Shown piece after piece: positions 20,576-47,070 of a DNA stretch of 64,000 bases. The position numbers and the translations under genes were made by a program. This stretch comes from Chloroflexota bacterium (GTDB lineage Bacteria > Chloroflexota > Anaerolineae > UBA2200): positions 1 to 64,000 of the forward strand of contig JACIWW010000014.1 of assembly GCA_014360905.1 (NCBI GenBank). The letters run 5' to 3'. How positions within the stretch are numbered: the stretch's first letter is position 1; the number at the start of each line of letters is the position of its first letter. The notes beneath the pieces were generated by a model. It was not told the origin of the DNA. It ran no database searches and saw only the letters and a program-made list of their open reading frames with translations.

Positions 20576-20598
20576 CGCTACTTGACTATGTTCGGGGT

Positions 20599-23362: not shown

Positions 23363-23440
23363 CTTCCAACTCCTACCATACAGAATGTTTTTGGACTTAC
23401 ATGGCCAAAATCGCAGGCCAATGCCATTTTTCAACGGGCG

Positions 23441-27564: not shown

Positions 27565-27568
<4 letters not shown>
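25460..27568 (+). CDS. Acetate/acyl-CoA ligase (ADP-forming), fused alpha-beta form
   Basis: The 702-residue enzyme should convert acyl-CoA, ADP and phosphate into the free acid, CoA and ATP, a one-step energy-saving reaction typical of archaea and some anaerobic bacteria. Order of domains: CoA-binding Rossmann domain (VAVIGAAREPGKLGYGV near residue 11), succinyl-CoA-synthetase-like flavodoxin domains with the phospho-His motif SSHTGSLAGSE near 250, a second ligase-CoA domain, and a C-terminal ATP-grasp domain (GYPVVMKIASPDILHKSDIG near 515). It overlaps the next gene by four bases (ATGA), indicating coupling. Acetate versus longer or aromatic acids cannot be told from sequence; the beta-oxidation block nearby makes acetyl-CoA a plausible substrate. 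Confidence 0.9.
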
Positions 27569-29981
<2,413 letters not shown>

Positions 29982-30958: not shown

Positions 30959-31747
30959 TCACCGCCTTGCCTTGTGCCATGCATAAAGTGCTGCTCCCAG
31001 AGCACCCACTGTCTGCGGATCGGAGGGCACACTGATAGAGTAGGCAGATTGCCTGGCCAACGCCGTTACTACCCCAACGTTGAGTGCTACTCCTCCAGTA
31101 AGCATGACTTCCGCTTCGAGGCCAACCCGTACTGCTAATCCCAGCACCCGGCTGGCAATCGCTTGATGCAATCCTGCCGCGACGTCCTGTTTGGCTGCCC
31201 CACGCGCTATATGGGAAATCGCCTCTGATTCAGCGAAGACCGTACAAGTGCTACTAATGACTAACGGATGCTCGGATTGAAGTGCAAAGGATCCAAACTG
31301 CTCGATGGGCACATCCAAGGCTGCTGCCATCACTTCCAAGAAACGGCCGGTGCCTGCCGCACATTTGTCATTCATAGCAAAATCAACCACTCTCCCTTGC
31401 GCATCCAAGCGGATTGCTTTGCTATCCTGTCCTCCAATGTCAATCACCGTGCGCACAGCAGGGCACAAGTGAAAAGCCCCCCGAGCATGACATGAAATCT
31501 CAGAGACCTCTTCATCTGCTGCCGTAAAGCGCACGCGTCCATAGCCAGTGACCACGGTATAGGCGATCTCAGCGAGCGTCAGACTATGTTCGGTCAACAA
31601 TCGTGCGACCAGCGCTTCAGCCGCTTCCTGGCCACCGTAGCCAGCGGGCATTATTCTCTTCGCCAGCACATGTTGGTCAGCGTCAAGCAGCACAGCCTTG
31701 ACCGTAAGCGATCCAATATCCACACCTAAAAAACATGGTCTGGTCAT
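30959..31747 (-). CDS. 2-Hydroxyacyl-CoA dehydratase activase (BadF/BadG/HgdC family)
   Basis: The 262-residue ATPase has the sugar-kinase/actin-like fold: phosphate loop GVDIGSLTVKAVLLD near residue 8 and VIDIGGQDSKAI near 100. Two cysteines, in NDKCAAGTG near 126 and SSTCTVFAESE near 165, match those that hold the [4Fe-4S] cluster between the subunits of the homodimer. It should use ATP hydrolysis to drive single low-potential electrons into the dehydratase. The ATG at 31747 overlaps the stop of the preceding dehydratase-subunit gene (ATGA), so the two are coupled. A longer frame from 31825 lies inside that gene and is rejected. Confidence 0.9.
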   Translation of the reverse strand: MTRPCFLGVDIGSLTVKAVLLDADQHVLAKRIMPAGYGGQEAAEALVARLLTEHSLTLAEIAYTVVTGYGRVRFTAADEEVSEISCHARGAFHLCPAVRTVIDIGGQDSKAIRLDAQGRVVDFAMNDKCAAGTGRFLEVMAAALDVPIEQFGSFALQSEHPLVISSTCTVFAESEAISHIARGAAKQDVAAGLHQAIASRVLGLAVRVGLEAEVMLTGGVALNVGVVTALARQSAYSISVPSDPQTVGALGAALYAWHKARR

Positions 31748-32961
31748 TTTCTCTCTGCTAAAGTTTCCATGAAAGCCTGAATTCTTGTCCTCACCGCTTC
31801 GGCGGCAAAAGCCCGCGTATCGCACATATCAGATTCGATGATCAAGCCTGGCGTGCCAGTGCGTGCGGTAACAAGGCGCTTGATAGCGTACTGTCCCAGG
31901 GAATATGGTTTGCAACTGCGATTGCAGTGCATCACAAACCCATCTACGTTGTACTCTTGAATCAACTGCTCCATCAATCGGCTCCGATACTCCAGGCTTT
32001 GATTGAGGAACACAGTAGCATAGGCTATGGCAATGCCTTCCATTATTCCCATTGTTTCTTCAGGAATTGTCTGTGACCAACCACCCGTGTATGTGTCCAC
32101 CACAAAGCATGCACCGTGATCAACGAAGTAGTTATAAAAGCGATAGAGGTGATGCCAGACAGCAATATTATCCCAAAGCAGTCGATACTTCTCCTCTGGA
32201 ATAGCTCCTACACCGTTCTTCACGCGCATCTCTACCTCAGCCTTGAGATGACGGTAAAAGCGCACTGCTTCTTCGGTACCCCGCAAGACAACAATCGGAG
32301 CCATGTTCACAAATAAATCAGGCGCATTCAGTGGCGAAGGCCGTGCTTTGCACAAAGTACGTATCTCGCTCCATAGCCGCACTGTTTCGTTCGCCAAGCG
32401 GGCAGTCCTCTCCAAACGCTGGTTGCCCAATCGGCGTCTGGTCGTCCTCTCCACAAAGCGGATCATCTCTTCCAGTTGAGTAACTATATAGGACAGCATC
32501 TGTGGCTCAAAACCATCGTGGATAAAAGGGGTGTCGAGGATAAAAAGCGGCACCTGGTAATGCGCGGAAACTGCTTCATACCACTTGATTACAGTGCCAC
32601 AGATATTGTTGCAGGCAATGAGCAAATCCGGCCGTGGCAGTCCTCCCATCGGCGCGCGTTCGCTTTGAAACATAGAGCCTAAACTGGTGCGCGCATAAGA
32701 GCAGAGATCAGGCGAGTATCCTTGCGCCTCCGCTGCTTCACACAGAGGAACCGCTTCCCGGCGTGCACCGCAAAGAGCGCCATAGTTCTCCGGATACGCC
32801 ACCATCACGCCCATAGCGCGCAAGATCTCCACTGGCGCACCACTTGTCACCCAGGCCAAGGGCCTGCCCAGCCGCGGGAGACGCATCCTAGTATAGTGCC
32901 ACTGCATAAGGCGCTGTAGCTCCGCCGCTGTCTTCAGTTTCTTGTACCTTTTCTCAGCCAT
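31744..32961 (-). CDS. 2-Hydroxyacyl-CoA dehydratase-like subunit (HgdB/BcrB family)
   Basis: The 405-residue protein belongs to the HGD-D family, which includes 2-hydroxyglutaryl-CoA and lactoyl-CoA dehydratase subunits and benzoyl-CoA reductase B/C. Family traits are PENYGALCGARR near residue 57, DLCSYARTSLG near 85, an ICGTV segment near 120 and the C-terminal MHCNRSCKPYSLGQ near 345, whose cysteines are candidates for the [4Fe-4S] cluster. Its partner lies immediately upstream and its activase immediately downstream. The substrate is unknown. Since only one activase-type subunit is present, a dehydratase is more likely than a four-subunit benzoyl-CoA reductase. Confidence 0.85.
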   Translation of the reverse strand: MAEKRYKKLKTAAELQRLMQWHYTRMRLPRLGRPLAWVTSGAPVEILRAMGVMVAYPENYGALCGARREAVPLCEAAEAQGYSPDLCSYARTSLGSMFQSERAPMGGLPRPDLLIACNNICGTVIKWYEAVSAHYQVPLFILDTPFIHDGFEPQMLSYIVTQLEEMIRFVERTTRRRLGNQRLERTARLANETVRLWSEIRTLCKARPSPLNAPDLFVNMAPIVVLRGTEEAVRFYRHLKAEVEMRVKNGVGAIPEEKYRLLWDNIAVWHHLYRFYNYFVDHGACFVVDTYTGGWSQTIPEETMGIMEGIAIAYATVFLNQSLEYRSRLMEQLIQEYNVDGFVMHCNRSCKPYSLGQYAIKRLVTARTGTPGLIIESDMCDTRAFAAEAVRTRIQAFMETLAERK

Positions 32962-32993
32962 TCCCCGACCTTGTCACGAAGAACTAGTCGTTC

Positions 32994-34142
32994 TTAGGCA
33001 CTGCGCAACATTTCGATGAATGCTTGGATGCGGGTGCGCAACTGACCACTGGGCATAGTGAGGTCGGTTTCAATCAGCAAATGCGGCACTCCGGCACCTG
33101 TGAGCGCTTTGGAGAGCAATACGTAGTCGAAAGCATGGGGTTCGCAGAATTTGGGCAACGCAAGGATTACGCCCTGGGCTCCTGTACTGTGCACTAAGTC
33201 TAGTAGACGTCTGGCACGGGAATTTGTGTCATCGTGCTTGGCCGGGCAGGGCACACGCCGTAAATAACGCTCCGTCAGCGATTCAAATGGCTCTTTCGCT
33301 TCGTCAACCAGCACATCAAAATAACGGCTGCCAGTGCACAAATCGTCCCATACCAACTGCCCGCCCAGTTCGTCGATCAACTGGGGAACGGTGGGGTCAT
33401 CGAGGATAGCGCCAACCAGAATCACCGTCGGCCTCTTAGGGCTGGCGCCCTTCTCTTCCCTTACTCCCCTCAAAAACGAGTGCAACAAGATATTGTACTC
33501 CTCCACAGGCATTACCATACCTGCTAGGGTGAGAGACCAAAATTGATCCACTGTGAAAGCCCACCGCTGTTGATAGAGCGCGGCCATAAGGCGGCGCTGC
33601 TCATTATACAAGGCAATACTGTCGCGCAGTGCATTTTCTGTTATTGGTGAACCACATTCTGACCCCAAAACAGCTGCCAAACGGTGCAGTTCTTTTAGCC
33701 AATAGTCCCGTGCACCAGGGTTGCTCAGCACAGTGGGCAAAGAGAAATGGATTACCTTGAACCGTGGACTTGCCATGCGCCAGATGTCGGTGACACATTG
33801 CATCGTGTCGCAAGTGTGCACCAATAAAAGCCCAAAGAGGCAATCAAGTTCTCCACTTAGCAACCGCTCCGTTACCATCCGAACTAGTGCGCAGGAAAAG
33901 GATGGCAGGTGCGCATTGGCTAGCGCCACTGGCCCAGACCCCTGCAGCAAACGCACTGGCACAAACCCCGCCGCATGCAACAGCTCAACTGGAGCATAGG
34001 TGCACAAGTAACCAAAAGCTCGCTTGGTAGGATAACGCACCTGCCACTCCTTACACGGGTGCATCAAGAAGTTCACCAAATCCCAGTCGACTTGGTTACT
34101 CAGCGAGGGTTCCACCAAATGAATGCACACATCCTGAGCCAT
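32994..34142 (-). CDS. 2-Hydroxyacyl-CoA dehydratase-like subunit, second (HGD-D family)
   Basis: The 382-residue protein is the likely partner of the neighbouring HgdB-like subunit. It shows GYLCTYAPVELLHAAG near residue 45, SFSCALVRMV near 80, the VHTCDTM motif near 107 and the C-terminal LPKFCEPHAFDYV near 325. This pattern of cysteines is characteristic of the dehydratase/benzoyl-CoA reductase subunits. The closing segment (ETDLTMPSGQLRTRIQAFIE) strongly resembles that of the first subunit, consistent with paralogous halves of a heterodimer. Only 32 bases separate the two genes. It lies 17 bases after the DUF362 gene on the same strand. Confidence 0.82.
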   Translation of the reverse strand: MAQDVCIHLVEPSLSNQVDWDLVNFLMHPCKEWQVRYPTKRAFGYLCTYAPVELLHAAGFVPVRLLQGSGPVALANAHLPSFSCALVRMVTERLLSGELDCLFGLLLVHTCDTMQCVTDIWRMASPRFKVIHFSLPTVLSNPGARDYWLKELHRLAAVLGSECGSPITENALRDSIALYNEQRRLMAALYQQRWAFTVDQFWSLTLAGMVMPVEEYNILLHSFLRGVREEKGASPKRPTVILVGAILDDPTVPQLIDELGGQLVWDDLCTGSRYFDVLVDEAKEPFESLTERYLRRVPCPAKHDDTNSRARRLLDLVHSTGAQGVILALPKFCEPHAFDYVLLSKALTGAGVPHLLIETDLTMPSGQLRTRIQAFIEMLRSA

Positions 34143-34159
34143 AAGGCATCATCCATATT

Positions 34160-35239
34160 CTAGAGCAGCTTGAGCACATCTTCCACAGTAGGCGGACAGC
34201 CACATGCCAAAGGTAACCCATGCTCCTCGGCAAACTGGCGCGCACAATCGCCCATGCAAATGACCTTGCCGTGCCCTGACGGCAACTGGCTGGCGTGACC
34301 CATCACAATATCCAAACGTCGCCACACCCCACGGTATAAGAACTTGATCCGACGCCAACGGCTGCTCTTCATTGCCTTGAAGGCATAATACAATACCCAA
34401 TTGCAGCCACTGCACGAGTCGTTGATATGCTCGTAAACATTTTTGTATACGAAATAGCCCTTATAATCAAAGGCAAAAGTCCTCTGGGCTTCTGCAATGC
34501 TCACACCCACCGTTTCCACTGTCGGAAGAAATGGGACGTGTGGCGCATGTTCCGGAGGAAAGCCCATCAATTGCCGGCAGACATTGTCCACCTCAATGAG
34601 ATCCGTACCGGCTACCAGCACGTTCATTGCCACTGGTCGTCCGTACCGCCATGGCCCATTGCCCTCTAGGGCTACAATGCCATCCACAATCGTCAGCGCA
34701 GGTTGCGCGATATCCGCTAAAGCCCGAATGCATGCGTTTAGGCCAAGGCGGTGGAAGCGGCGCTTGTCGGCAGAAGTAAGCAAGCCCTTCTGGTTCTTCA
34801 TGCCCAATGTCACACCAGTCTGGACGTGCGTCTTCATCTTGGCAATATTGATGTACTCGTGAGTCAGCAAGTAGTTTGGCAATTTGAGCAGGCCATGAGG
34901 CCAAGGGATACTAAATCGCTCTGCGTGTTCCAGATTGACCAGCGTAGCTCCATAGCGCTCAGCTACGGATGCGTATCCATTCTTGCGCAAAGCAATCTCG
35001 GCATCGCGACCGACAATACCTCCTTCGCCAATGACCACGGGTCTACCTGGAAACAACTTCAAGAAAGCATCAACGACAGCGGGATCGGTGTACAACCCTT
35101 GTCCTGGCGACCCTGAATCAGGAACGTTGGGTTTGATAAATAATGCCTCGCGTTGAGGGCGGTAGCCAATTAAGCGAAGCAATTCAGCCATGCTCTGGTC
35201 TATGTCGTTTAGCGTGGCCCGCACAATCCCAACAGTCAT
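34160..35239 (-). CDS. DUF362-domain protein
   Basis: The 359-residue protein has the DUF362 core (FIKPNV near residue 35, INIAKMKTH and GVTLGMKNQKG near 135-150, and an ADIAQPALTIVDGI segment near 170). A cysteine-rich C-terminal region follows, with CSGC, CMGDC and CGC clusters (residues about 285-350). DUF362 proteins are often fused to or associated with ferredoxin domains; their reaction is not established. The clustered cysteines suggest an iron-sulfur centre. Its ATG overlaps the stop of the MBL hydrolase gene, and it sits directly upstream of the dehydratase genes. A role in electron supply or cofactor handling for the dehydratase is a guess from context. Confidence 0.8.
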   Translation of the reverse strand: MTVGIVRATLNDIDQSMAELLRLIGYRPQREALFIKPNVPDSGSPGQGLYTDPAVVDAFLKLFPGRPVVIGEGGIVGRDAEIALRKNGYASVAERYGATLVNLEHAERFSIPWPHGLLKLPNYLLTHEYINIAKMKTHVQTGVTLGMKNQKGLLTSADKRRFHRLGLNACIRALADIAQPALTIVDGIVALEGNGPWRYGRPVAMNVLVAGTDLIEVDNVCRQLMGFPPEHAPHVPFLPTVETVGVSIAEAQRTFAFDYKGYFVYKNVYEHINDSCSGCNWVLYYAFKAMKSSRWRRIKFLYRGVWRRLDIVMGHASQLPSGHGKVICMGDCARQFAEEHGLPLACGCPPTVEDVLKLL

Positions 35240-36072
35240 ATGCCCCTGCTTCCCTTTGCTGAGGACCCACGCAGATAGGCTTGGATGAGATACGACCTGC
35301 GGAAATGCCCCTGCGTGAGGTACGTGATGCTTGGCATACCTCCCAGCAAGCGTCTCTGGATCTCCTGGACGCTATACCCTTGCCGGTATAGTGCTTGCAC
35401 TTTTGCCCCCAATTCCTCCAAATAGGTGATTTTCTGCTGGATCTCAGCAACAGGATTATTCACTCGGACTGAGCCGCTCCCCGGGAACAGCGCGGTCAAT
35501 TCCAACGCTGCAAGCCTTTTGAGCGAAGCAATCACTTCATAGATATCATAGTCAGGCCTGGCAGCACGATCTCGGCCACCAATATACGCATCGCCGGTAA
35601 AGAGCCACCCCAAATTGGGTTCATAGAGGCAGACATGGTCCGGGCTGTGCCCTGGTGTGTGAAGCACTTGAAAACGGCAATGCGCTGTCTCCACCCATTC
35701 GCCCAGAGGCTGGCCCTGAGAGGGTTGCGGCCTTCCCCAGAAAAATCGGCGATAGGGTTGTAGATATTGTAACTTGGGATTGGCCAAAATGGGCAAAGTC
35801 AAGGGATGCGCCAAGACAGGAATGCCATAGGCCTGCTGTAACAGCCCATTGCCCCCGATATGATCCTCATGGCAATGGGTATTGACAATTTGCTCCACAG
35901 CAAGACCCCGTGTGGATAGAGCGTCCAGCAATTCTCGGGCAGTATAGGCGCAGGTAGTATCAACTAGCAGACCGTCTATCCAGTAAGCTGCCGTGTGATA
36001 AAAAGCGTGCCCTAAGACGCTGCGAGCGGCGCGAAATAAAACCACCGGGGCATATTCCCTCACCTCAAGCAT
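35236..36072 (-). CDS. Metallo-beta-lactamase-fold hydrolase
   Basis: The 278-residue protein keeps the complete zinc motif NTHCHEDHIGGN near residue 64, HTPGHSPDHV near 137 and FTGDAYIGG near 158. It is therefore expected to be an active binuclear metal hydrolase, in contrast to the degenerate paralogue at 18279. The C-terminal 70 residues form a helical extension (LEELGAKVQALYRQGYSVQE and following). Thioester or lactone hydrolysis would fit its place between an acyl-CoA thioesterase gene and a dehydratase module, but the substrate is unknown. It is coupled to the DUF362 gene by a four-base overlap. Confidence 0.82.
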   Translation of the reverse strand: MLEVREYAPVVLFRAARSVLGHAFYHTAAYWIDGLLVDTTCAYTARELLDALSTRGLAVEQIVNTHCHEDHIGGNGLLQQAYGIPVLAHPLTLPILANPKLQYLQPYRRFFWGRPQPSQGQPLGEWVETAHCRFQVLHTPGHSPDHVCLYEPNLGWLFTGDAYIGGRDRAARPDYDIYEVIASLKRLAALELTALFPGSGSVRVNNPVAEIQQKITYLEELGAKVQALYRQGYSVQEIQRRLLGGMPSITYLTQGHFRRSYLIQAYLRGSSAKGSRGI

Positions 36073-36098: not shown

Positions 36099-36533
36099 TC
36101 ATTGTTCATCTTGTCGACCTAATGCAGCGCATAGGGCTTCGCGTACTTCGAGTGGCAACCGAATCGGTCTCAGATCGCGCAGCTCAACCAGTACTTGCAC
36201 CGTGCGCCCATTGGCTAGCAACCGTCCATCTTCAGCGTTCGCAATCTCATATGCCAGTGCGAAACTGGAGCGACGCACTTCTTCTACCCAAGTGTGGATA
36301 ATCAAGCGGTCGTCAAAATATGCCGGGGCATGGTAACGACAGGATGCCTCCACAATGACAAGACCTAGTCCGCTTTGCTGCCAGATGCGGCGATCCAGAC
36401 CCAAGGCTCGTAAGTAGTTAACGCGTCCTACTTCCATGTAAATAAAGTAGTTGGCGTAGTAAACCACGCCTTCTGCATCCGTTTCAGCATAGCGCACGCG
36501 GACTTCGGATTCGACAATGCGCGGCTTTGTCAC
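36099..36533 (-). CDS. Acyl-CoA thioesterase, 4HBT/YbgC family
   Basis: The 144-residue hotdog-fold enzyme should hydrolyse an acyl-CoA to acid and CoA. The family motif with the catalytic Asp is YAETDAEGVVYYANYF near residue 15, and the following MEVGRVNYLRALG helix is typical of the 4-hydroxybenzoyl-CoA thioesterase/YbgC group. The GTG start has AGGAAG about eight bases upstream. In this operon-like block it may remove dead-end acyl-CoAs or set the acid product free. Chain-length preference cannot be read from sequence. Confidence 0.85.
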   Translation of the reverse strand: MTKPRIVESEVRVRYAETDAEGVVYYANYFIYMEVGRVNYLRALGLDRRIWQQSGLGLVIVEASCRYHAPAYFDDRLIIHTWVEEVRRSSFALAYEIANAEDGRLLANGRTVQVLVELRDLRPIRLPLEVREALCAALGRQDEQ

Positions 36534-36730: not shown

Positions 36731-37933
36731 CTATATCTTGCTTCCAGCTCCCACGGCTTTCAGTTGCTTGATGATTTCTGGGATCACCTTGTACAGATCG
36801 CCCACAATGCCCACGTCAGCGATCTGGAAAATTGGGGCGGCGGGGTCCTTGTTGATGGCGACAATAAACTTGGACTCCTTCATCCCCGCCTGGTGCTGTA
36901 TTGCTCCGGAGATACCACAAGCTATATAGAGATCAGGGTGTACGGTTTTCCCTGTCTGTCCCACCTGATGATCGTGGTCAATCCAGCCAGCATCTACGGC
37001 AGCGCGTGAAGCACCGACCTCTCCGCCTAGAGCTTCAGCCAACTCCTCGATGAGTTTGAAACCTTCAGGACCTCCCAAACCACGTCCACCGGACACGATG
37101 ATCTTGGCGTCCTCCAGGTTGACGCGGCGTCGTGCCTCCTTAACCACCCGCAGGATGTTGATGTTTAAATCTTCCTCGCCGATGTTCACTGGGAAACGCT
37201 CGATCTCACCCTGTCGCGATGGATCAGGCTGTGGCGCACGCATAACGCCCGGACGCACAGTGGCCATCTGGGGCCTATGGCGTGGACAAACAATGGTCGC
37301 CATGATATTGCCACCGAAAGCAGGGCGAGTCTGCAGGAGGAGACGCTCGCTTTCGTCAATATCCAGCCCCGTGCAATCAGCGGTCAAACCAGTGTAAATG
37401 CGCTGTGAGATACGCGGTGCTAGATCCCGGCCAACCGTCGTCGCACCGAAGAGCACGATCTCAGGCTTCTTGCTCTGGATCAAATCCGCCAGCACCTTGG
37501 CATAGGCATCCGTACGATAGTGCTCCAACAGAGGGTCGTCAGCTAGATAGACTGTGTCCGCACCATCGGCTATGAGTTCCTGTGCCAGATGCTCCACGTT
37601 ATAGCCAAGCAGAACCGCTTCCGCTTTAGCCCCCAGCGTATCTGCTAACTCACGCGCCTTGCCCATCAACTGGTGCGCTACTTTGGTCAGCACGCCTTCC
37701 CGCTGCTCGGCAAATACCCACACGTTGCGATATTCTTGAACCCTAACCTCGCCAGCTACTCGTACGCCGATGAACAGCGCTCCTTCGGGGCACTGGTCCA
37801 CGCACGCACCACAATCCACACAACTCTCGTAGACCTTGGCTTTCCCGTTTACCACTTCTATCGCCCCAAAGGGACAGGCAAAGACGCAGTTACCGCACCC
37901 TGTACACTTTTCTAGATCTACTTTTAACTCCAT
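36731..37933 (-). CDS. etfA: Electron-transfer flavoprotein alpha subunit with N-terminal 2[4Fe-4S] ferredoxin
   Basis: The 400-residue subunit starts with a bacterial ferredoxin domain carrying two CxxCxxCxxxCP motifs (residues 10-21 and 38-49). The EtfA domains follow, including the FAD-binding end SRAAVDAGWIDHDHQVGQTG near 315 and IACGISGAIQHQAGM near 345. Ferredoxin-fused EtfA proteins are known from anaerobes such as the caffeyl-CoA reductase complex of Acetobacterium, where ETF takes part in flavin-based electron bifurcation. GGAGG before the ATG supports the start. The beta subunit lies four genes upstream, which is unusual because etfB and etfA are normally adjacent. Bifurcation itself is inferred. 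Confidence 0.92.
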   Translation of the reverse strand: MELKVDLEKCTGCGNCVFACPFGAIEVVNGKAKVYESCVDCGACVDQCPEGALFIGVRVAGEVRVQEYRNVWVFAEQREGVLTKVAHQLMGKARELADTLGAKAEAVLLGYNVEHLAQELIADGADTVYLADDPLLEHYRTDAYAKVLADLIQSKKPEIVLFGATTVGRDLAPRISQRIYTGLTADCTGLDIDESERLLLQTRPAFGGNIMATIVCPRHRPQMATVRPGVMRAPQPDPSRQGEIERFPVNIGEEDLNINILRVVKEARRRVNLEDAKIIVSGGRGLGGPEGFKLIEELAEALGGEVGASRAAVDAGWIDHDHQVGQTGKTVHPDLYIACGISGAIQHQAGMKESKFIVAINKDPAAPIFQIADVGIVGDLYKVIPEIIKQLKAVGAGSKI

Positions 37934-38060: not shown

Positions 38061-39302
38061 TTATGCCTTCGCACATAGGGCAAGTTGTCTCTCAATTGCT
38101 TTCCCTAACCTCTTAATACCCTCCTCAATCATCTCTGGGCTAGCGGTTGAAAAGGTCAAGCGCAGTGTGTTTTGCCCGCTCACTCCATCCGGATAGAAAG
38201 CAGTGCCTGGTATAAAAGCAACCTTCTCCTCCAGTGCAGCCTTTAATAACTCCATCGAATTCGTGCCTTCAGGCAGCATCACCCACAGGAAAAGACCCCC
38301 TTGAGGCCGAGTCCAACGCACACCAGGCGGGAAATACTTCTCCATAGCGGAAAGCATAACCGCACAGCGTTCTCTGTACAGATTCCGGATGTTTTTGACA
38401 TGCTGTCGCAAGAAGCCCCGTTGGCAGATGTCATTGGCGATCATCTGGTCAAAAATGCTGGTGTGCAAGTCGGCTGCCTGCTTGGCCTGCACCAGCCTGC
38501 CCAGTACTCTAGCTGGGGCCACAATCCATCCTAGACGGATGCCTGGCGCGAGGGTCTTGGAAAAAGTGCTCAAATAGATAGTGTTTTCCTTGTGCAGGAC
38601 GATGATGGGGGTGAGATCCTCCCCCTCGAAACGCAATTCGCCATAAGGGTCGTCCTCAACGATGAACACGCCATGCCGCGCAGCCAGTTCCACTAGTCTG
38701 TGCCGACGCTCCAAAGAGAGCGTCACGCCAGCCGGGTTGTGGAAATTAGGCAGCGAATAAATAAATTTGACTCGCTCCCGTTTCAGTATGTCTTCTATCA
38801 GATCAACCTGCGTCCCGTCATCATCCAATGGAACGGTTACGAAACGCGCCTCATATGAGCTCCAGGCTTGGATTGCCCCTAGATAGGTGGGACGGTCCGT
38901 GAGAATCGTATCGCCCGGATTGAGAAAGACCTTGCCAATCAGATCAAGGGCCTGCTGTGAGCCATTCACGATCAAAATGTTCTCTTCTTCAGCAGGGACG
39001 CCATACTTCTGCATCTTGGCTACCAGATACCTCTTCAGGGGAGGATACCCCTCCGTCACGCTGTACTGCAAGGCCTGTGCCCCTTCGTGTTCGAGGATAT
39101 AACGACAGGCCTCCTGAAATTCCCGGATGGGGAACAACTCTGGCGCCGGCATGCCTCCTCCAAGGGAAATGATCCCCGGTGTGGACATCAGTTTCAACGT
39201 CTCACGGATGATGGAACTGGTCATGCGCTCCGTGCGTTTAGCAAGGGCTCCTTCCCAATCTGTAGTCCATTTGCCATCCCAATTGACAACGCTGTCAGTC
39301 AT
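38061..39302 (-). CDS. PLP-dependent aminotransferase, class I/II (LysN/AraT-like)
   Basis: The 413-residue enzyme has the fold-type I layout of the 2-aminoadipate/broad-specificity aminotransferases: ISLGGGMPAPELFP near residue 45, NGSQQALDLIGK near 110, the LPNFHNPAGVT motif near 185, DDPYGELRF near 215 and the PLP lysine in STFSKTLAPGIRLGW near 250. It should transfer amino groups between 2-oxoglutarate and branched, aromatic or dicarboxylic amino acids. GGAGG fixes the ATG at 39302. In this block it could feed 2-oxo acids towards 2-hydroxyacyl-CoA dehydration, but no 2-hydroxyacid dehydrogenase or CoA-transferase is present to complete that route. Confidence 0.85.
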   Translation of the reverse strand: MTDSVVNWDGKWTTDWEGALAKRTERMTSSIIRETLKLMSTPGIISLGGGMPAPELFPIREFQEACRYILEHEGAQALQYSVTEGYPPLKRYLVAKMQKYGVPAEEENILIVNGSQQALDLIGKVFLNPGDTILTDRPTYLGAIQAWSSYEARFVTVPLDDDGTQVDLIEDILKRERVKFIYSLPNFHNPAGVTLSLERRHRLVELAARHGVFIVEDDPYGELRFEGEDLTPIIVLHKENTIYLSTFSKTLAPGIRLGWIVAPARVLGRLVQAKQAADLHTSIFDQMIANDICQRGFLRQHVKNIRNLYRERCAVMLSAMEKYFPPGVRWTRPQGGLFLWVMLPEGTNSMELLKAALEEKVAFIPGTAFYPDGVSGQNTLRLTFSTASPEMIEEGIKRLGKAIERQLALCAKA

Positions 39303-39386
39303 GGCTTTTTCCTCCATAATCTTTATCCCGGGCTTCATCGCCCTGTATCTGCTCTAACGAATGAAACATGGTCGCTGTCCTGTTTC

Positions 39387-40052
39387 CTATGCTACTTCCG
39401 TCTCCCGCAGCATGATCTGGCGGGCCACGGCGAGGCTCTCCTCAATACGGGTTATGGCCCAATCCACACCATTCACCTCCTGTGCAGATCCCACAAACAC
39501 GGTAACCATACCCAACTCTGACGCTACGCGTAGATTGGGCAAGGAATCATCGAACACAATGCATTCCTCAGCCCGGACTCCAAGCGCATCGAGCAGGCTT
39601 TGATAGGTGGAAAGATGCGGCTTGCCAATATACCCGCTATCTTTGATGTCAAATATGCGCTCAAAATGATGCGCTACTCCCAAGGCTTTCAAAACTTGCT
39701 GTGCGTGCTCCTTGGGCGAATTGGTGAAGATCACCTTGCGCCATGGCAAACAGGCTAGTACTCGATTCAACTCCTCGTTTGGTGCCAGAAATTCCTCTAC
39801 TGAGAAATCATGGACATAGACGAGATAATCTTCTGGATCGATCTGAAATTCTACTACGAGGCCGCGCATTGTCGAGCCGTATTCGCGCCAGTAGCGCGGC
39901 CGAAGACTGTTGATTAGCGCATCATCCATGCCCAGGCGTGTAGCCATGTATTCGTTGATGCGTTGGCTCACCATCTCCATCACTCCTATCCTCTTGGGAT
40001 ATAGAGTGTCATCCAGGTCAAATAGTGCGTATTGCAACCTGAGCTCTCTCAC
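39387..40052 (-). CDS. HAD-superfamily phosphatase, pyrimidine 5'-nucleotidase-like
   Basis: The 221-residue protein has the HAD motifs in order: FDLDDTLYPKRIG near residue 10, IFTNSPKEHA near 105, the Lys in GKPHLSTYQ near 140 and FDDSLPNLRVASELGM near 165. The helical cap resembles that of the Sdt1-type pyrimidine 5'-nucleotidases and beta-phosphoglucomutase relatives. The GTG at 40052 overlaps the stop of the upstream EamA remnant by four bases (GTGA) and has a GGGGG site nearby; a longer frame to 40115 lies inside the remnant. The substrate is unknown. Confidence 0.78.
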   Translation of the reverse strand: MRELRLQYALFDLDDTLYPKRIGVMEMVSQRINEYMATRLGMDDALINSLRPRYWREYGSTMRGLVVEFQIDPEDYLVYVHDFSVEEFLAPNEELNRVLACLPWRKVIFTNSPKEHAQQVLKALGVAHHFERIFDIKDSGYIGKPHLSTYQSLLDALGVRAEECIVFDDSLPNLRVASELGMVTVFVGSAQEVNGVDWAITRIEESLAVARQIMLRETEVA

Positions 40053-40327: not shown

Positions 40328-40360
40328 GCAGCCCACTCGAAAGATGTCGCAGCATAGGAT

Positions 40361-41227: not shown

Positions 41228-42013
41228 CTAAATGATATTCTTCTGGCGAAGTATCGCTACCAATTCTTTGGCTGCCTCCGAGGGCCCACTCTTGATGATC
41301 TGCCCTGGTTCCTTCGGCGGTGGAGAGAAACTCCGTTTCACTTGAGTCGGGGAACCCTGCAGACCAACCTGCTCTGGGTTTGCGTCCACATCCTTCACGC
41401 CCCAGAAGGTCACTTTTCGCTCACGATAGGCAGTCATAATCGCTCCCGCATGTGGATAGCGTGGCGAATTTGCTTCTTTCGTGATAGTCAAAAGCGCAGG
41501 CAACTGGGCTTCGATTTCCTCATAGCCATCCTCAATCGCCCTTTTTACCCTCACCCTGCCGTTTTCTATAACTAACTCGCGCACGTAAGTGATCTGTGGG
41601 ATCTTGAGGTACTCAGCCACTTGTGGTCCAACTTGAGCTGTATCGCCGTCAATTGCCTGCCGCCCTGCCAATACTAGATCGAAATCGCCAATCTTTTTCA
41701 AAGCGAGTCCCAAAGTGGTTGCTGTCGCCCAGGTGTCTGCACCAGCAAAGGCGCGGTCGGTCAACAGGATGGCCTCATCTACACCCATCGCCAGGGCTTC
41801 CCGCAGCGCATCCTCTGCCTGGGGTGGCCCCATAGAGATAGCAATAACCTGGCCTCCCATTTGCTCCTTTAACTTTAGCGCCTCTTCAAGGGCATTTTTG
41901 TCCTCGGGATTGATGATGCTAGGCACGCCCTCGCGAATCAGGGTGCCTGTTCTGGGGTCAAGTTTGACTTCAGTAGTGTCCGGAACCTGCTTAATCAATA
42001 CGACAATCTTCAT
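41228..42013 (-). CDS. etfB: Electron-transfer flavoprotein beta subunit
   Basis: The 261-residue subunit is full length: MKIVVLIKQVPDT at the start, the NPEDKNALEEAL segment near residue 35, VDEAILLTDRAFAGADTWAT near 75-95 and the nucleotide-binding signature GRQAIDGDTAQVGPQ near 118. It pairs with EtfA to move electrons from acyl-CoA dehydrogenase. GGAGG 11 bases upstream fixes the ATG at 42013. The gene directly follows the acyl-CoA dehydrogenase gene, its natural partner, whereas etfA is separated by four unrelated genes. Confidence 0.92.
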   Translation of the reverse strand: MKIVVLIKQVPDTTEVKLDPRTGTLIREGVPSIINPEDKNALEEALKLKEQMGGQVIAISMGPPQAEDALREALAMGVDEAILLTDRAFAGADTWATATTLGLALKKIGDFDLVLAGRQAIDGDTAQVGPQVAEYLKIPQITYVRELVIENGRVRVKRAIEDGYEEIEAQLPALLTITKEANSPRYPHAGAIMTAYRERKVTFWGVKDVDANPEQVGLQGSPTQVKRSFSPPPKEPGQIIKSGPSEAAKELVAILRQKNII

Positions 42014-42055
42014 GGGTAGCTTTTCCTCCCTCTCCGTGATCAATGGCGTAGGCAA

Positions 42056-43228
42056 TTATCTGAGCCGCAGTCCAATGTTGCGGAACAAGTTGCGGGCAAT
42101 GATCTCGCGTTGTATCTCGTTGGTTCCCTCAAAGATACGCGTGATGCGTACATCACGGTACATGCGCTCAATGGGATACTTCTTCATATAACCCATTCCA
42201 CCGTGAATCTGCACGGCCACATCAGCGGCGCGGCAGGCCACCTCTGAACCGAAAACTTTGCACATGGCTGCCATTGTACTGAATTCGCGTCCCATATTTC
42301 CGCTATCCATCATCCAGGCTGTACGATAGACCAGGGAACGCAACGCCTCTATCTCGATTGCCATATCCGCAATCATCCATTGAATAGCTTGCTTGGCCGC
42401 GATTGGCGCCCCAAACTGATAGCGACTCTTGGCAAATTCCATACTCATTTTCAACGCCTGCTGTGCCGCTCCGAGACATCCTGCGGCAAGGCTAATGCGA
42501 CCTACATCCAGAGTTTTCATAAACGTGAGGAATCCAGCACCGAACTGGCCCAATACGTTTTCCGCGGGGACCCGGCAGTCTTCGAAGAACAACTCCGCTG
42601 TAGGGGAGCCGCGGATGCCCATTTTCTCTTCCCTGCGTCCTACTTTGAACCCTGGGAAGTCTTTCTCCACGATAAAGGCTGTCACTCCACCCCTTGCACC
42701 CAAAGCTGGGTCGGTGACTGCCAAGACACTAATGACATCGGCAATGTCTCCGTTCGTAATCCACAGTTTCGAGCCATTTAGGATGAAGTAATTGCCATCA
42801 CGAATTGCTCTTGTTTGAATCGCCGCGGCGTCCGAACCAGCATTGGGTTCTGTCAGGGCAAATGCCGCGATCTTTTCGCCGCGGGCCAGAGGGACGAGGT
42901 ACTTCTGCTTCTGCTCCTCAGTGCCATCCAAATAGATGGCCATAGCCCCAATGCCGGTGTGCGCACCAATAATGGTCGCCGTGGAGCCACATACCTTATT
43001 CATTTCCTCCATGAGAATGCAATAGCCAATCTCACCTGCACCTGCCCCACCGTATTTCTGCGGAAATGGAACTCCCATAAGTCCCAGCTTGGCTGCCTTC
43101 TTGATGATTTCGAACGGAACCCGTTCATCACGATCGATCTCTTCAGCGAGAGGCGCCACCTCTTTCTCCGCAAATTCCCTGATCATACGGCGGAGCAATT
43201 CATACTCCTTGGGGAACGTAAAGTCCAT
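42056..43228 (-). CDS. Acyl-CoA dehydrogenase
   Basis: The 390-residue FAD enzyme should introduce the 2,3 double bond into short- or medium-chain acyl-CoAs. The FAD/substrate motifs FALTEPNAGSDAA near residue 130 and WITNGDIADV near 160, the QFGAPIAAKQAIQWMIADM region near 270 and the C-terminal HGGMGYMKKYPIERMYRDVR are all present. The probable catalytic base is the Glu of FEGTNEIQR near 368. GGAGG five bases before the ATG at 43228 fixes the start. It lies between the acyl-CoA ligase and etfB genes, a textbook beta-oxidation arrangement. Confidence 0.93.
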   Translation of the reverse strand: MDFTFPKEYELLRRMIREFAEKEVAPLAEEIDRDERVPFEIIKKAAKLGLMGVPFPQKYGGAGAGEIGYCILMEEMNKVCGSTATIIGAHTGIGAMAIYLDGTEEQKQKYLVPLARGEKIAAFALTEPNAGSDAAAIQTRAIRDGNYFILNGSKLWITNGDIADVISVLAVTDPALGARGGVTAFIVEKDFPGFKVGRREEKMGIRGSPTAELFFEDCRVPAENVLGQFGAGFLTFMKTLDVGRISLAAGCLGAAQQALKMSMEFAKSRYQFGAPIAAKQAIQWMIADMAIEIEALRSLVYRTAWMMDSGNMGREFSTMAAMCKVFGSEVACRAADVAVQIHGGMGYMKKYPIERMYRDVRITRIFEGTNEIQREIIARNLFRNIGLRLR

Positions 43229-43254
43229 TGCTTCCTCCTTCATTCGATTCTTTA

Positions 43255-44766
43255 CTATTCTTTTAGTTGCCTTTTGATGACCTTGCCAGCAGCATCTTTG
43301 GGCAACTCAGTGCGGAATTCGATATACCGCGGATATTTGTATGCTGCCATCTGCCCGCGTGCATATTCGATGATTTCCTCAGCATCTACTGCTTCGTCCG
43401 GCTCGAGCACTACAAAAGCCTTGATTTCCTCTCCCATGACTTCATCGGGAATGCCAACGACAGCAACCTCAGCGATCGCCGGGTGAGCAAGCAGCACGTC
43501 CTCTACTTCACGGGGATAGATATTGAGTCCACCGCGCTTGATTAGATCCTTCTTTCGGCCTACTATGTGGAAGTAACCATCTTCATCCCTACGTCCCAGA
43601 TCACCGGTATGAAACCACCCACCGCGCATAGCTTCTGCGGTCAGCCCTGGCCGTTTGTAATAGCCCTTCATTACGTTGTGTCCACGGATCACGATTTCCC
43701 CCACTGTACCCGGTGGTACTTCGTGGTCATTTTCATCCACGATCCTCATCTGTACACCATAGATGGGTTGCCCGATAGAGCCAGGACGTGGGGGCTTATC
43801 CGTGGGATTAAACGACGCGACGGGCGAGGTTTCTGATAGACCATAGCCTTCGAAAATCGGCAAGCCGTATCTCTCCCCAAATGCGCGCATCAAATCCACC
43901 GGCAATGCTGCCCCACCTGAGCAGCAGAGACGCAATGAGCTCCAATCGTATCTCTCAGCCCTCGGATAGTGTTGCAGATACCAGTACATAGTCGGTACAC
44001 CCAACAGTAGGGTGACACGGTCGCGCTGGATAGTCTGCAAAACCTTGTCCGTATCGAAGCGAGCCAGCAGAGTGAGCGTGCCACCTGCATACAATGTGGC
44101 GTTCATCACACAGGTTTGCCCAAAGGCGTGGAATAGGGGCAGCACTGCCAGTGAGATATCCTGTGGAGTGATCTTGCACAGCCGATCCGCAGTGAGCGCA
44201 GCGTTATAGAACATGTTAAAGTGGGTTAGTTCTGCACCTCTGGGATATCCCATAGCTCCTGCGGTGTACAGGATAACCGCAGTGTCATCTGACCTTGTCT
44301 GGACCGTATCGAAGTCAGGCTGGCCGCTCTCCAATAGATCGGCAAAGCGTTTCCAGCCAGGCGGCGCCTGCTTGCCCACAACGATCAAATGGCGGCAGGC
44401 TTCTACTCGCTTAAGCGCCTGTTGAGCTTCTGGCAACAATGTTTCTTCTACGATCAACGCCACCGCGTCGGAATCTTCCAACTGATAGGCAATTTCAGCC
44501 GCTTTGAACAGGGTGTTCAAAGGGACGACACAGCCACCAGTTTTCAATGCCCCGAAGTAGGCTATGATGAACTCAGGGACATTTGGTAGCATAATAGCTA
44601 CCTTATCCCCTGGACGCACCCCGAGCTGTGCCAGTCCAGCAGCACAACGATTCGCCGCTTCGTTGAGCTGCCCGTAGCTCATGCGGTAGCCATTGGAAAT
44701 GAGCGCAGTATGTTGAGGCCGGCTGAAAGCCCCAGTCTCGAGCACAGTTGTCAGATTTAGACTCAT
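43255..44766 (-). CDS. Acyl-CoA ligase (AMP-forming) with altered P-loop
   Basis: The 503-residue enzyme belongs to the adenylate-forming family and should activate a fatty or aromatic acid to its CoA thioester. Motifs from the middle onward are normal: GYGLSETSPVASFNP near residue 305, the GWFHTGDLGRRDEDGYF hinge near 385, GRKKDLIKRGGLNIYPREVE near 405 and the C-terminal LPKDAAGKVIKRQL with the catalytic Lys. The phosphate-binding loop near 160 reads YTAGAMGYPRG instead of the usual YTSGTTGxPKG. No good ribosome site precedes the ATG at 44766, and the upstream 120 bases hold a palindromic repeat. Confidence 0.85.
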   Translation of the reverse strand: MSLNLTTVLETGAFSRPQHTALISNGYRMSYGQLNEAANRCAAGLAQLGVRPGDKVAIMLPNVPEFIIAYFGALKTGGCVVPLNTLFKAAEIAYQLEDSDAVALIVEETLLPEAQQALKRVEACRHLIVVGKQAPPGWKRFADLLESGQPDFDTVQTRSDDTAVILYTAGAMGYPRGAELTHFNMFYNAALTADRLCKITPQDISLAVLPLFHAFGQTCVMNATLYAGGTLTLLARFDTDKVLQTIQRDRVTLLLGVPTMYWYLQHYPRAERYDWSSLRLCCSGGAALPVDLMRAFGERYGLPIFEGYGLSETSPVASFNPTDKPPRPGSIGQPIYGVQMRIVDENDHEVPPGTVGEIVIRGHNVMKGYYKRPGLTAEAMRGGWFHTGDLGRRDEDGYFHIVGRKKDLIKRGGLNIYPREVEDVLLAHPAIAEVAVVGIPDEVMGEEIKAFVVLEPDEAVDAEEIIEYARGQMAAYKYPRYIEFRTELPKDAAGKVIKRQLKE

Positions 44767-44802
44767 ATCATAATCTAGTAGCGAATGATAAGTGACAAGT
44801 AG

Positions 44803-44876
44803 GAGTGACGAGAACGAGTGCAGCAGAGAGTCGCTAACAGCGGGCAAGCACGCGGATCACTCGTTGCTCGTCACTC
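44803..44876. repeat. Inverted repeat of the GTGACGAG type upstream of the ligase gene
   Basis: GAGTGACGAGAACGAGTG (44803-44820) is inverted at 44858-44876 with one extra base, around a 37-base loop. A related TGACGAGTGG palindrome occurs at 58073-58118. Confidence 0.6.
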
Positions 44877-44889: not shown

Positions 44890-45690
44890 TTATCTATCTT
44901 GGAACCTGGGTTGCCGTTTTTCCAGGAATGCGGTGACTCCTTCGTAGCCATCATGGGTGGCGCACAATGCTACGAACTTCTCCTCCTCCATCTTGAGGGC
45001 CTCAAGCAGGCTTACCTCCATGCCATGGTTAATGGCTTCCAAGATGGCCGCAGTAGCCAGCCCGCTCTTGGAGATGATCTTTTTGGCCAAATCCTGGGCT
45101 GTCTTGACCACCTGGCCGGCAGGTACTACTTTGTTCACTAAGCCGAGGCGTGCTGCTTCTTGAGCGGGGATCATATCGCCCGTCAGAATCAACTCGATTG
45201 CCTTGCCTCTGCCAACTAGGCGCGGGAGCCTTGCTGTCCCACCCCAGGCGGGCAGTAACCCCAGGTTGACCTCTGGCTGGCCAAAGCGCGCCGTATCGGA
45301 TGCGATGCGCATGTGGCAGGCCATGGCCAATTCCATGCCTCCGCCAAGGCAGACGGCGTTGATAGCAGCGATGACGGGCTTGGTGCTCTTCTCAATGCGG
45401 TTGAAGAGTTGCTGCCCCTTGACTATCAAATCCCTCTTCACTTCATGCCCTGCCCGGGCCAGATCGATTTGTGCTTTGATCTCGTTGATATCTGCCCCGG
45501 CCACGAAGGCGAACTGCCCGGCGCCCGTAATAATGATGGCCTTGACCTCGGGATTGTTGTAAACCTCCTCGAAAGCACTAGCCAGATCATTCACGGTCTG
45601 CTCATTGAAAGCATTCGCCGGAGGATGATCAATGGTGAGGGTAGCAATGCGCTCCTCTACCGAAACCTTGACATACTGGCGATCTGCCAT
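44890..45690 (-). CDS. Enoyl-CoA hydratase
   Basis: The 266-residue crotonase-fold enzyme should hydrate 2-enoyl-CoA to 3-hydroxyacyl-CoA. The oxyanion-hole strand is in FVAGADINEIK near residue 65, the first catalytic Glu in CLGGGMELAMACHMRIA near 115 and the second in FGQPEVNLGLLPAWGGTARL near 135, so both acid residues are kept. AAAGGAG eight bases before the ATG at 45690 fixes the start; a frame up to 45774 runs through a hairpin and is not used. It lies between the ligase and 3-hydroxyacyl-CoA dehydrogenase genes. Confidence 0.93.
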   Translation of the reverse strand: MADRQYVKVSVEERIATLTIDHPPANAFNEQTVNDLASAFEEVYNNPEVKAIIITGAGQFAFVAGADINEIKAQIDLARAGHEVKRDLIVKGQQLFNRIEKSTKPVIAAINAVCLGGGMELAMACHMRIASDTARFGQPEVNLGLLPAWGGTARLPRLVGRGKAIELILTGDMIPAQEAARLGLVNKVVPAGQVVKTAQDLAKKIISKSGLATAAILEAINHGMEVSLLEALKMEEEKFVALCATHDGYEGVTAFLEKRQPRFQDR

Positions 45691-45729
45691 TTGACATACT
45701 CCTTTCTTCAGTGATTTGAATTGCGATAG

Positions 45730-45772
45730 GAGCGGAGGGGCACGAGAAACGATCGCATGCCCTTCTCCGCTC
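45730..45772. repeat. Palindromic element between the hydratase and dehydrogenase genes
   Basis: GAGCGGAG (45730-45737) with CTCCGCTC (45765-45772), plus GGGCA (45738-45742) with TGCCC (45758-45762), form a 13-pair stem with a two-base bulge. The loop contains ACGAGAAACG, also found in the hairpin at 47025-47064. No U-run follows. Confidence 0.65.
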
Positions 45773-45776
45773 ACTG

Positions 45777-46997
45777 CTATGTTGTATACTCGAAGAACCC
45801 CTTGCCGACTTTCTTGCCGAGATGTCCGGCCCGTACTTTCGTCTTGAGCAAACGCGCTGGGCGGAAACGATTGCCAAACTTTTCCTGTAGCCTCTGCAAT
45901 TCGGAAAGCACCACATCTAGCCCCAACACATCCGCGAGCTGCAAAGGTCCCATGCGCTCTTCGCCGTACTTCATGCCCGTGCCGGCAATCATGGCCATGT
46001 CGATCTTGTCAGGTGGAGCGATATTCTCGGTCACACATTGCACTGCTTCATTAATCAGTGGCATCATCAGACGCTGCCAACTGAATTCAGTGCCTTTCTG
46101 TACTTTGCCCTCATCCTGCAGTTTCTTGATCATGGCCCTGACTGGTTCATCCGTTTGGTCTCCGTATCCGTAGAAGCCGGCGCCTGCTTTCTCCCCGAGC
46201 CGACCAGCTTCGAACATCATCTGGAATAGCGGTGGTATCTCTACACCGTATTCCTCGCCCAGGTACCTGGCCGTATGGTAGACCACGTCAATGCCCAACA
46301 TGTCCATCAGAGTAAAGGGCCCCATTGGCCAGCCAAACTGAACCATAGTCTCGTCAATCTCGCGTGCTGTCGCAGCTCCTTCCTGAAGCGCGAACGTAGC
46401 CTCACCAAGATAGGGCATCAGCAGACGATTTACCAAAAAACCAGGGCACTCCTGCACCACCACTGGGATCTTGCGCAGCGACTCGGTGAACATGACCACA
46501 TCGTCAATCGTTTCCTGTGAGGTATCCAGTCCCGGGATGATCTCGACCAGTTTCATCACATGCGCTGGGCTGAAAAAGTGCATCCCGATCATCTTCTGTG
46601 GCCGTTTGGTCGCGGCACCCATCTCAGAAATGGACAGGGCAGAGGTATTCGAGGCAAAGATTGTATGTTCGGGACAGACCGCATCCAACTCAGCCCAGAC
46701 CTTCTTCTTAAGGCTCATGACCTCGGGCACGGCCTCGATAACGATGTCTACATCGGAGAATTCATCATACGAGAGCGTAGGGGTTACCAGGCTGACTTTC
46801 TCCTGCATCTCGCCTGCACTCATCTTACCACTGTCCACGCGTCGTTGATAGATGCTCCGCAATTGCTCCATACCCTTATCCAGCATCTTCTGGTCCACAT
46901 CTTTCAATACCACTGGCAGGCCAGAATAGGTGATGACTTGAGCAATGCCAGCACCCATGAAACCTGCCCCAACCACTGCAGCTTTAAAAATATACAT
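45777..46997 (-). CDS. 3-Hydroxyacyl-CoA dehydrogenase
   Basis: The 406-residue NAD-dependent enzyme oxidises 3-hydroxyacyl-CoA to 3-oxoacyl-CoA. The Rossmann motif AAVVGAGFMGAGIAQ is near residue 6, the catalytic region SNTSALSIS near 115 and GMHFFSPAHVMKLVEII near 140. Two C-terminal 3HCDH domains follow, the second ending GKKVGKGFFEY, so this is the long form resembling the dehydrogenase half of FadB without its hydratase half. AAAGGAGG before the ATG at 46997 fixes the start. It lies between the thiolase and hydratase genes. Confidence 0.93.
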   Translation of the reverse strand: MYIFKAAVVGAGFMGAGIAQVITYSGLPVVLKDVDQKMLDKGMEQLRSIYQRRVDSGKMSAGEMQEKVSLVTPTLSYDEFSDVDIVIEAVPEVMSLKKKVWAELDAVCPEHTIFASNTSALSISEMGAATKRPQKMIGMHFFSPAHVMKLVEIIPGLDTSQETIDDVVMFTESLRKIPVVVQECPGFLVNRLLMPYLGEATFALQEGAATAREIDETMVQFGWPMGPFTLMDMLGIDVVYHTARYLGEEYGVEIPPLFQMMFEAGRLGEKAGAGFYGYGDQTDEPVRAMIKKLQDEGKVQKGTEFSWQRLMMPLINEAVQCVTENIAPPDKIDMAMIAGTGMKYGEERMGPLQLADVLGLDVVLSELQRLQEKFGNRFRPARLLKTKVRAGHLGKKVGKGFFEYTT

Positions 46998-47024
46998 TGG
47001 CTCTCCTCCTTTCAAGTTATTCTG

Positions 47025-47064
47025 AAAAAGCCAGGTGCGTACGAGAAACGCCCTGTTTTGGCTT
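47025..47064 (-). terminator. Terminator-like hairpin between thiolase and dehydrogenase genes
   Basis: On the minus strand AAGCCA (47059-47064) pairs with TGGCTT (47028-47033), with an inner stem of CAG/CTG and GCGT/ACGC, followed by TTTTTC. It ends 27 bases before the dehydrogenase ATG, so it would only partly stop transcription or serve as an mRNA processing/stability element. Confidence 0.5.
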
Positions 47065-47070
47065 CTTTGT

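Follow-up and report, generated by a model that had tools for sequence, protein, structure and literature searches.

The closest described relatives of the system treated here are the dehydratase HadBC with its activator (PDB 3o3m, 4eht), the BZD-type class I benzoyl-CoA reductase BzdNO (PDB 8s02; PMC11971306) and DCCP with DCCP-R (PDB 6eno, 7yyl). The family scheme in the Discussion of PMC11971306 places [8Fe-9S] double cubanes in DCCP and in BzdN and none in dehydratases: each monomer of the homodimeric DCCP has a double cubane, whereas double cubanes are described as abolished in the heterodimeric 2-hydroxyacyl-CoA dehydratases, which have a single [4Fe-5S] cluster in the beta subunit. The locus compared with these systems lies in a window of 64,000 nucleotides (the whole stretch analysed; contig JACIWW010000014.1, here C14) from a Chloroflexota genome (GCA_014360905.1; 2.83 Mb, 49 contigs, 96% complete). 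Its five genes encode an activase, two HGD-D subunits (alpha, P0002, and beta, P0003), a DUF362 protein and an MBL-fold hydrolase. We lean towards reading the core of this module as a 2-hydroxyacyl-CoA dehydratase that is activated with ATP and belongs to an uncharacterised group within the benzoyl-CoA reductase/2-hydroxyacyl-CoA dehydratase family, with a putative double cubane in beta.

The case for the double cubane lies in the beta subunit. The [8Fe-9S] ligands of BzdN, Cys36, Cys73, Cys100, Cys263, Cys293 and Cys327, align one to one with beta Cys47, Cys84, Cys111, Cys269, Cys299 and Cys333, and the residues reported at the distal sub-cluster, Arg53, Arg267, Arg290 and His330, have identical partners in Arg64, Arg273, Arg296 and His336 (BzdN residues from PMC11971306). 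HadC, the sole dehydratase beta subunit compared, retains four of the six Cys sites and differs at five of the ten positions, with Pro and Ala in place of Cys47 and Cys269 and Gly, Ile and Glu in place of Arg64, Arg296 and His336. Judged by its sequence, beta therefore has the six of six Cys of a class I benzoyl-CoA reductase and not the single-cluster arrangement described for dehydratases. MbdN is without Cys47, Cys269 and Cys299; because Cys84, Cys111 and Cys333 are common to HadC and MbdN, we infer that Cys47, Cys269 and Cys299 would be the distal ligands.

All six Cys were present in 70 of 80 distinct beta relatives; eight showed the pattern xCCDTC, one PCCCCC, and one was cut short. This set leaves aside the outlying loci L080-L083 and L172, four solved references, loci that lack a beta match of at least 280 residues, P0003 itself and copies identical over a long stretch; when outlying loci and duplicates are counted, all six Cys are found in 80 of 97 rows. 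In the xCCDTC sequences (L127, L143, L145, L151, L152, L153, L159 and L162), Ser/Thr/Asn, Asp and Thr jointly replace Cys47, Cys269 and Cys299. These eight rows form one side of a single branch on the alpha tree (SH-aLRT 100), and therefore the three ligands appear to have been lost jointly in a single event. Of the sequence evidence that they may act as a unit, this joint loss is the best, and the subclade is a natural comparison group for the loss of three ligands. The six Cys and the activase family are shared with DCCP. Unlike that homodimer, the complex here would have two diverged subunits, of which alpha retains three cluster Cys only.

The alpha subunit resembles HadB. Its best solved match is HadB (5e-71, about 35% identical; BzdO, 3e-42), and its profile scores were 533 bits for HadB, 214 for BzdO and 210 for MbdO. 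The NCBIfam models all scored under their cut-offs, with 280 of 750 bits for HadB, 175 of 487 for BcrB and 155 of 449 for BzdO. Cys87, Cys121 and Cys350 of alpha match cluster ligands and Glu58 corresponds to BzdO Glu65. Among 96 alpha homologues, with outlying loci and some identical copies counted in, Cys87, Cys121 and Glu58 are present in all, Cys350 in 95 and Ser40 in 90. BzdO His131, the His next to Fe-OH2 in class I benzoyl-CoA reductases, aligns with Val124, and Val occupies this place in 85 of the 96. As in HadB, alpha thus has three Cys for a predicted catalytic [4Fe-4S] site and the Glu, without the BzdO-type His. The position of BzdO Trp46 is taken by Ala42 according to HMMER and by Ile according to MAFFT. 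The activase matches the activator of 2-hydroxyisocaproyl-CoA dehydratase (1e-74). Alpha and beta are the only matches to the HGD-D family in the whole genome; for the activase family, one match exceeded the Pfam cut-off and a second, weak one fell short of it.

These features bear on a rival explanation, an ATP-dependent acyl-CoA reductase of the benzoyl-CoA reductase type, in which the double cubane would store two electrons, alpha would reduce a CoA-bound aromatic or unsaturated substrate and the product would pass to enoyl-CoA hydratase, 3-hydroxyacyl-CoA dehydrogenase and thiolase. The full BzdN ligand set of beta, with its Arg/His shell, would suit such an enzyme, as would the ligase and beta-oxidation genes of the same run. 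The HadB-like alpha, with Val124 in place of His131 and no Trp at the Trp46 position, speaks against it, and so does the single activase over the cut-off where class I benzoyl-CoA reductases have two different ATPase subunits (P/Q in the BZD type). Moreover, for three ligases linked to dehydratase genes the top-scoring model was that of a fatty-acid CoA ligase, with scores under its cut-off, and some relatives have 2-hydroxyacid dehydrogenase genes nearby. We consider a reductase unlikely. The preliminary description of this DNA had suggested that the complex may reduce rather than dehydrate: the ligand set of beta is indeed of the reductase type and keeps reduction open, but dehydration is the best reading, because of the HadB-type site of alpha and the 2-hydroxyacid dehydrogenase genes near some relatives.

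On the phylogenetic tree, alpha lies inside a group of 74 rows (SH-aLRT 97) with no solved reference. One unresolved fork gives off a second group of 18 rows, HadB, L172, L080 and the pair of MbdO and L081, and BzdO stands with L082 and L083 across a long branch from the rest. The 80 distinct beta sequences were drawn from both groups; the 75 rows of the tree with six Cys take in BzdO, L082 and L083. The preliminary description had named a position firmly inside a characterised dehydratase clade, with partner genes elsewhere in the genome, as the outcome that would speak against its proposal. Alpha does not fall there, though an orthologue of the ligase linked to dehydratase genes in relatives does lie elsewhere in this genome.

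The had operon includes a CoA-transferase. As the preliminary description had remarked, neither a CoA-transferase nor a 2-hydroxyacid dehydrogenase was recognised beside the genes of the module by the searches made. A genome-wide search for class III CoA-transferases gave no match in the window (class I enzymes were not searched for genome-wide); the single match in the genome lies unlinked on contig C35, reached at most half the cut-off of the succinate-glutarate, formyl-CoA and oxalate transferase models, and was rejected as a hidden partner. Relatives link an AMP-forming ligase to the dehydratase genes instead. It is the next gene downstream, following the activase in G001, G002, G003 and G004 and following alpha in G022, in whose stretch we saw no activase. 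A gene on contig C10 of the window genome, with a close paralogue on C5, shares 78-94% identity with these ligases (the 94%, from G001, covers a fragment of 88 residues). Further afield, a same-strand ligase lies within 1.7 kb of the alpha and beta genes in 29 of 79 named loci, the best 79 of at least 560 confirmed, many contigs ending too early to show one; 25 of the 29 are from Bacillota, Desulfosporosinus and Desulfotomaculum among them, and four from Chloroflexota. A ligase was scored here as a same-strand open reading frame (ORF) of at least 250 amino acids whose best match in the window set was the window ligase, at 28-47% identity, so that a few may be other AMP-forming enzymes. Because one ligase stands in the same run and a second beside the dehydratase genes of relatives, CoA activation would probably be driven by ATP through an AMP-forming ligase and a CoA-transferase would be unneeded. 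The earlier suggestion that the substrate may already be a CoA thioester is then no longer required. A class I CoA-transferase pair (PF01144) was found in the orthologous locus of G022 and a weak PF01144 match in a 545-amino-acid ORF of G045; a gene pair in G011 was likened to class I CoA-transferases by ORF comparison only.

For D-2-hydroxyacid dehydrogenases (PF02826) we found seven matches in the genome, six of them over the cut-off, on seven other contigs and none on C14; Ldh_1, Ldh_2 and GlcD-type proteins were not searched for genome-wide. None of the seven is a clear pathway partner: one is SerA-sized, a reading from size, and the one on C20 adjoins an FGGY kinase gene near an aldehyde ferredoxin oxidoreductase gene. 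In the relative L167 (Desulfobacteraceae), the activase is followed by genes for a CCG-domain protein, a GlcD-like FAD-linked oxidase and a CCG/4Fe-4S protein, a layout known from D-2-hydroxyacid dehydrogenases, and ORFs sized like this trio (a likeness of size only) stand at the same place in several related loci. In L116, about 0.4 kb past alpha, there is a gene of the Ldh_2 (malate/L-lactate dehydrogenase) family. These neighbours point to 2-hydroxy acids.

From the genes, residues, conservation and linkage we infer clusters, chemistry, substrate and pathway direction as follows. Transamination of an amino acid would give a 2-oxo acid, which an unassigned enzyme would reduce to the 2-hydroxy acid; an AMP-forming ligase, in place of a CoA-transferase, would load the 2-hydroxy acid onto CoA. 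The activase would use ATP to fire a low-potential electron into beta, where a BzdN-type [8Fe-9S] double cubane would take or store it and hand it to the HadB-type [4Fe-4S] cluster of alpha. Elimination of water at this site would give an enoyl-CoA; the acyl-CoA dehydrogenase encoded nearby, together with EtfB and ferredoxin-EtfA, would reduce it, and a thioesterase or a ligase would release the product.

Several results weigh against a double-cubane dehydratase. A dehydratase recycles a single electron (PMC11971306), and therefore a cluster capable of two-electron storage is unexpected and would suit a reductase. The Arg/His shell is less constant than the Cys set: among 97 homologues, Arg64 is kept in 84, Arg273 in 95 and His336 in 84, and Arg at the place of BzdN Arg290 (Arg296) in just 51. 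Four NCBIfam models scored beta within nine bits of one another, all below their cut-offs (BcrC 167.0 bits, cut-off 421; HadC 166.7, cut-off 700; DCCP model NF040772, double_cubane, 162.6, cut-off 350, with alpha at 93; BzdN 158.5, cut-off 454), and the predicted structure of beta (pLDDT 88) fits HadC (Z 44.5), BzdN (Z 44.2) and DCCP (Z 41.7) nearly equally, so neither decides the type of beta. HadBC is the only characterised dehydratase in the comparison, which leaves outside it HgdAB, LcdAB and FldBC, whose beta subunits may have these six Cys as well. On the alpha side, the branches of HadB and MbdO are long and their placement unsure, with the position of HadB open on a quick tree. The pairing of Ser40 with BzdO Ser44 depends on the alignment, HMMER making it and MAFFT placing Asp there. 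At the His131 place our alignments give Val in HadB, contrary to the Ala given for it in PMC11971306. The C10 ligase orthologue is unlinked to the dehydratase and has a close paralogue, ligase linkage in other phyla may not transfer to this genome, and the searches made found no linked 2-hydroxyacid dehydrogenase in it.

Part of this would fit an ordinary 2-hydroxyacyl-CoA dehydratase, in which the six Cys are an ancestral leftover or common in the dehydratases that were not compared and the locus a plain reductive branch of the Stickland type. Alpha is HadB-like, the gene set resembles the fld and had operons, beta ties with HadC in fold and its scores on the models are nearly the same. Drift, however, would not conserve six Cys across phyla and remove three of them jointly from one subclade, and PMC11971306 describes [8Fe-9S] clusters as abolished in dehydratases. 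We regard this explanation as unlikely as well, and rank it just below a reductase. Returning to the double-cubane dehydratase, the combination of a HadB-like alpha with a BzdN-like beta falls outside the scheme of PMC11971306, which has both double cubanes abolished in heterodimeric dehydratases and, in its Discussion, no dehydratase of this kind. If this reading is correct, a widespread group that joins a dehydratase-type catalytic subunit to a BzdN-type subunit with a double cubane would fill a gap in that scheme and would offer a direct route to the role of [8Fe-9S], as a two-electron store for reduction or as a means of low-potential electron delivery. A literature search, with most subscription journals outside its reach, found nothing tying a 2-hydroxyacyl-CoA dehydratase to DUF362, to an acyl-CoA ligase or to amino acid use in Anaerolineae.

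The DUF362 protein had been put forward as a partner of the dehydratase, a link that its distribution does not bear out. Of 396 genomes of the class, 10 have a near-full-length orthologue (54-100% identity). The match that follows by E-value has 34% identity across residues 26-350, and G029 has a piece of 58 residues at 53%. The orthologue adjoins dehydratase genes in four genomes (G000, G001, G004 and G005) and lies apart from them in the other six. It is found near aminotransferase, EtfA and thioesterase genes in G045, G076 and G027, near the aminotransferase and a ligase in G011, and beside a ligase on short contigs in G079 and G006, in every case with other genes in the dehydratase's place. 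Five dehydratase loci of like layout are without DUF362 (G002, G003, G022, L176 of G034 and L135 of G094). Because it is apart from the dehydratase in six of ten genomes and missing from these five loci, the DUF362 protein goes with the wider locus rather than with the dehydratase alone; the MBL gene is likewise a wider-locus gene. That it docks to the dehydratase as a dedicated electron carrier, as its adjacency in four genomes and its Fe-S domain might suggest, is very improbable given this distribution and given G027, which has the orthologue and no hit to beta. That genome, whose assembly is fragmented and whose DUF362 locus is L208, also has no LarC match.

The predicted DUF362 structure (pLDDT 92) has a LarA-fold domain at about residues 7-259 and a NuoB-like Fe-S domain at about 265-359. 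DUF362 and DUF2088, the family of the lactate racemase LarA with its nickel-pincer nucleotide, share Pfam clan CL0471, and DUF362 has served as an outgroup in lactate racemase work (PMC11770544). In a structure search with this model, the top eleven rows were all chains of LarA, chains resembling it, or the Thermotoga protein 4nar, and they cover the N-terminal domain (Z 15.5-17.3; the best fit to LarA, Z 17.3, has 2.7 A over 207 residues of the predicted model), and the rows after these, from Z 7.0, cover the other domain. Profile comparison by hhalign matched DUF362 to 12 LarA sequences taken from these genomes (E 7e-6, probability 84); a DUF362 profile run against solved structures gave no LarA match at E up to 10. 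In the profile alignment, His138 and Lys148 pair with an invariant His and Lys of LarA. From motif and spacing, with LarA1 itself outside the alignment, they would correspond to LarA1 H174 and K184 (numbering from PMC11770544). The alignment stops at residue 158, and His163 matches H200 by spacing, 15 against 16. In the nickel-pincer site of LarA, this Lys is the tether of the nucleotide and this His a Ni ligand. Lys148 and His163 are kept in 25 of 25 DUF362 rows and His138 in 23. LarA Arg75 and the second catalytic His, His108, both present in 12 of 12 LarA rows, have no partner in the profile alignment, where DUF362 has Ser44 and Ile75. The C-terminal domain, an addition relative to LarA, resembles NuoB/PSST of complex I at Z 7.0 over 85 residues, a level that may mean a common arrangement, and has a weak profile match to MbhJ (E 0.083). 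Of 25 rows, 19 have Cys276, Cys279, Cys332 and Cys348; in three of the 19 (L013, L015 and L187) they look like ordinary ferredoxin motifs.

The fusion of a LarA fold with a NuoB-like Fe-S domain gives the DUF362 protein a testable function. It is conceivable, and in our view improbable, that it is a redox-active relative of lactate racemase: Lys148 and His163 would hold a pincer-type nucleotide, which with a single catalytic His138 would exchange hydride with a 2-hydroxy/2-oxo acid, the NuoB-like [4Fe-4S] cluster would exchange electrons with ferredoxin, and the protein would supply the missing 2-hydroxyacid dehydrogenase activity that feeds the double-cubane dehydratase. The window genome has a LarC gene. 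Co-occurrence with LarC was rejected as a test of DUF362 function: nine of the ten orthologue genomes have LarC (G027 does not), but so do four of the five dehydratase genomes in the comparison that lack the orthologue. Distant DUF362 matches occur in G015 and G124, neither of which has a LarC or LarA match.

The 30 ORFs of the window that were checked against Pfam bear out the five families of the module at 30959-36072 and both of its ATGA overlaps (alpha/activase at 31744-31747 and MBL/DUF362 at 35236-35239), as first described. The limits then given leave out the upstream part of the locus. The dehydratase module is the tail of a longer same-strand run that extends to 48270, from thiolase to activase (Table 1), with an HAD hydrolase and an M55 peptidase, in that order, between the aminotransferase and EtfB. 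The activase ORF as listed begins at 31825; its likely start is the ATG at 31747. The four-base overlaps are nothing special at this locus, because the pair of ADP-forming acyl-CoA ligase and DRTGG genes overlaps by four bases too (27565-27568). Of the 15 intergenic gaps in the run, 12 are shorter than 60 bases (overlaps counted) and the others measure 127, 197 and 245 bases, so the run could be more than one transcript. Counts of promoters and terminators reached chance level only.

Table 1. Genes of the dehydratase module and of the same-strand run upstream of it (window positions).
Feature	Position	Strand	Match or remark
Activase (BadF/BadG/BcrA/BcrD ATPase)	30959..31747	-	Pfam BcrAD_BadFG 3e-63; TIGR00241 259 bits, cut-off 125
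HGD-D alpha subunit (P0002), HadB-like, predicted catalytic [4Fe-4S]	31744..32961	-	Pfam HGD-D 9e-83
HGD-D beta subunit (P0003), six-cysteine double-cubane set	32994..34142	-	Pfam HGD-D 6e-83
DUF362 protein, LarA-fold domain and NuoB-like Fe-S domain	34160..35239	-	Pfam DUF362 6e-37
MBL-fold hydrolase	35236..36072	-	Pfam Lactamase_B 2e-24
4HBT (YbgC/FadM-type) acyl-CoA thioesterase	36099..36533	-	
Ferredoxin-domain EtfA	36731..37933	-	Nearest NCBIfam model: acryloyl-CoA reductase electron transfer subunit, 433 bits (cut-off 600)
Class I/II PLP aminotransferase	38061..39338	-	
EtfB	41228..42055	-	
Acyl-CoA dehydrogenase	42056..43243	-	Nearest model: acryloyl-CoA reductase, 459 bits (cut-off 640)
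AMP-forming acyl-CoA ligase	43255..44847	-	
Enoyl-CoA hydratase, 3-hydroxyacyl-CoA dehydrogenase, thiolase	44890..48270	-	Upstream end of same-strand run

The peptidase M55 and pyrimidine-5'-nucleotidase-type HAD hydrolase genes inside the run (39387-41179, minus strand) are also found in several relatives, and their role is not obvious. Between them lies a short ORF (40049-40336, minus strand) with no Pfam match. Where it stands, G002 has a gene for a 339-amino-acid EamA transporter (L054:14686-15705), of which the short ORF may be a remnant. The ADP-forming acyl-CoA ligase and DRTGG-domain protein are encoded near the dehydratase module on the opposite strand (25460-28641, plus strand), and possibly form the energy-conserving end of the same catabolism. 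Further away, at 18279-23434 on the minus strand, genes for an MBL-domain protein, a tRNA_SAD editing-domain protein, a D-Ala-D-Ala-ligase-like ATP-grasp protein and a lysine-2,3-aminomutase-like radical SAM protein stand in a row on one strand.

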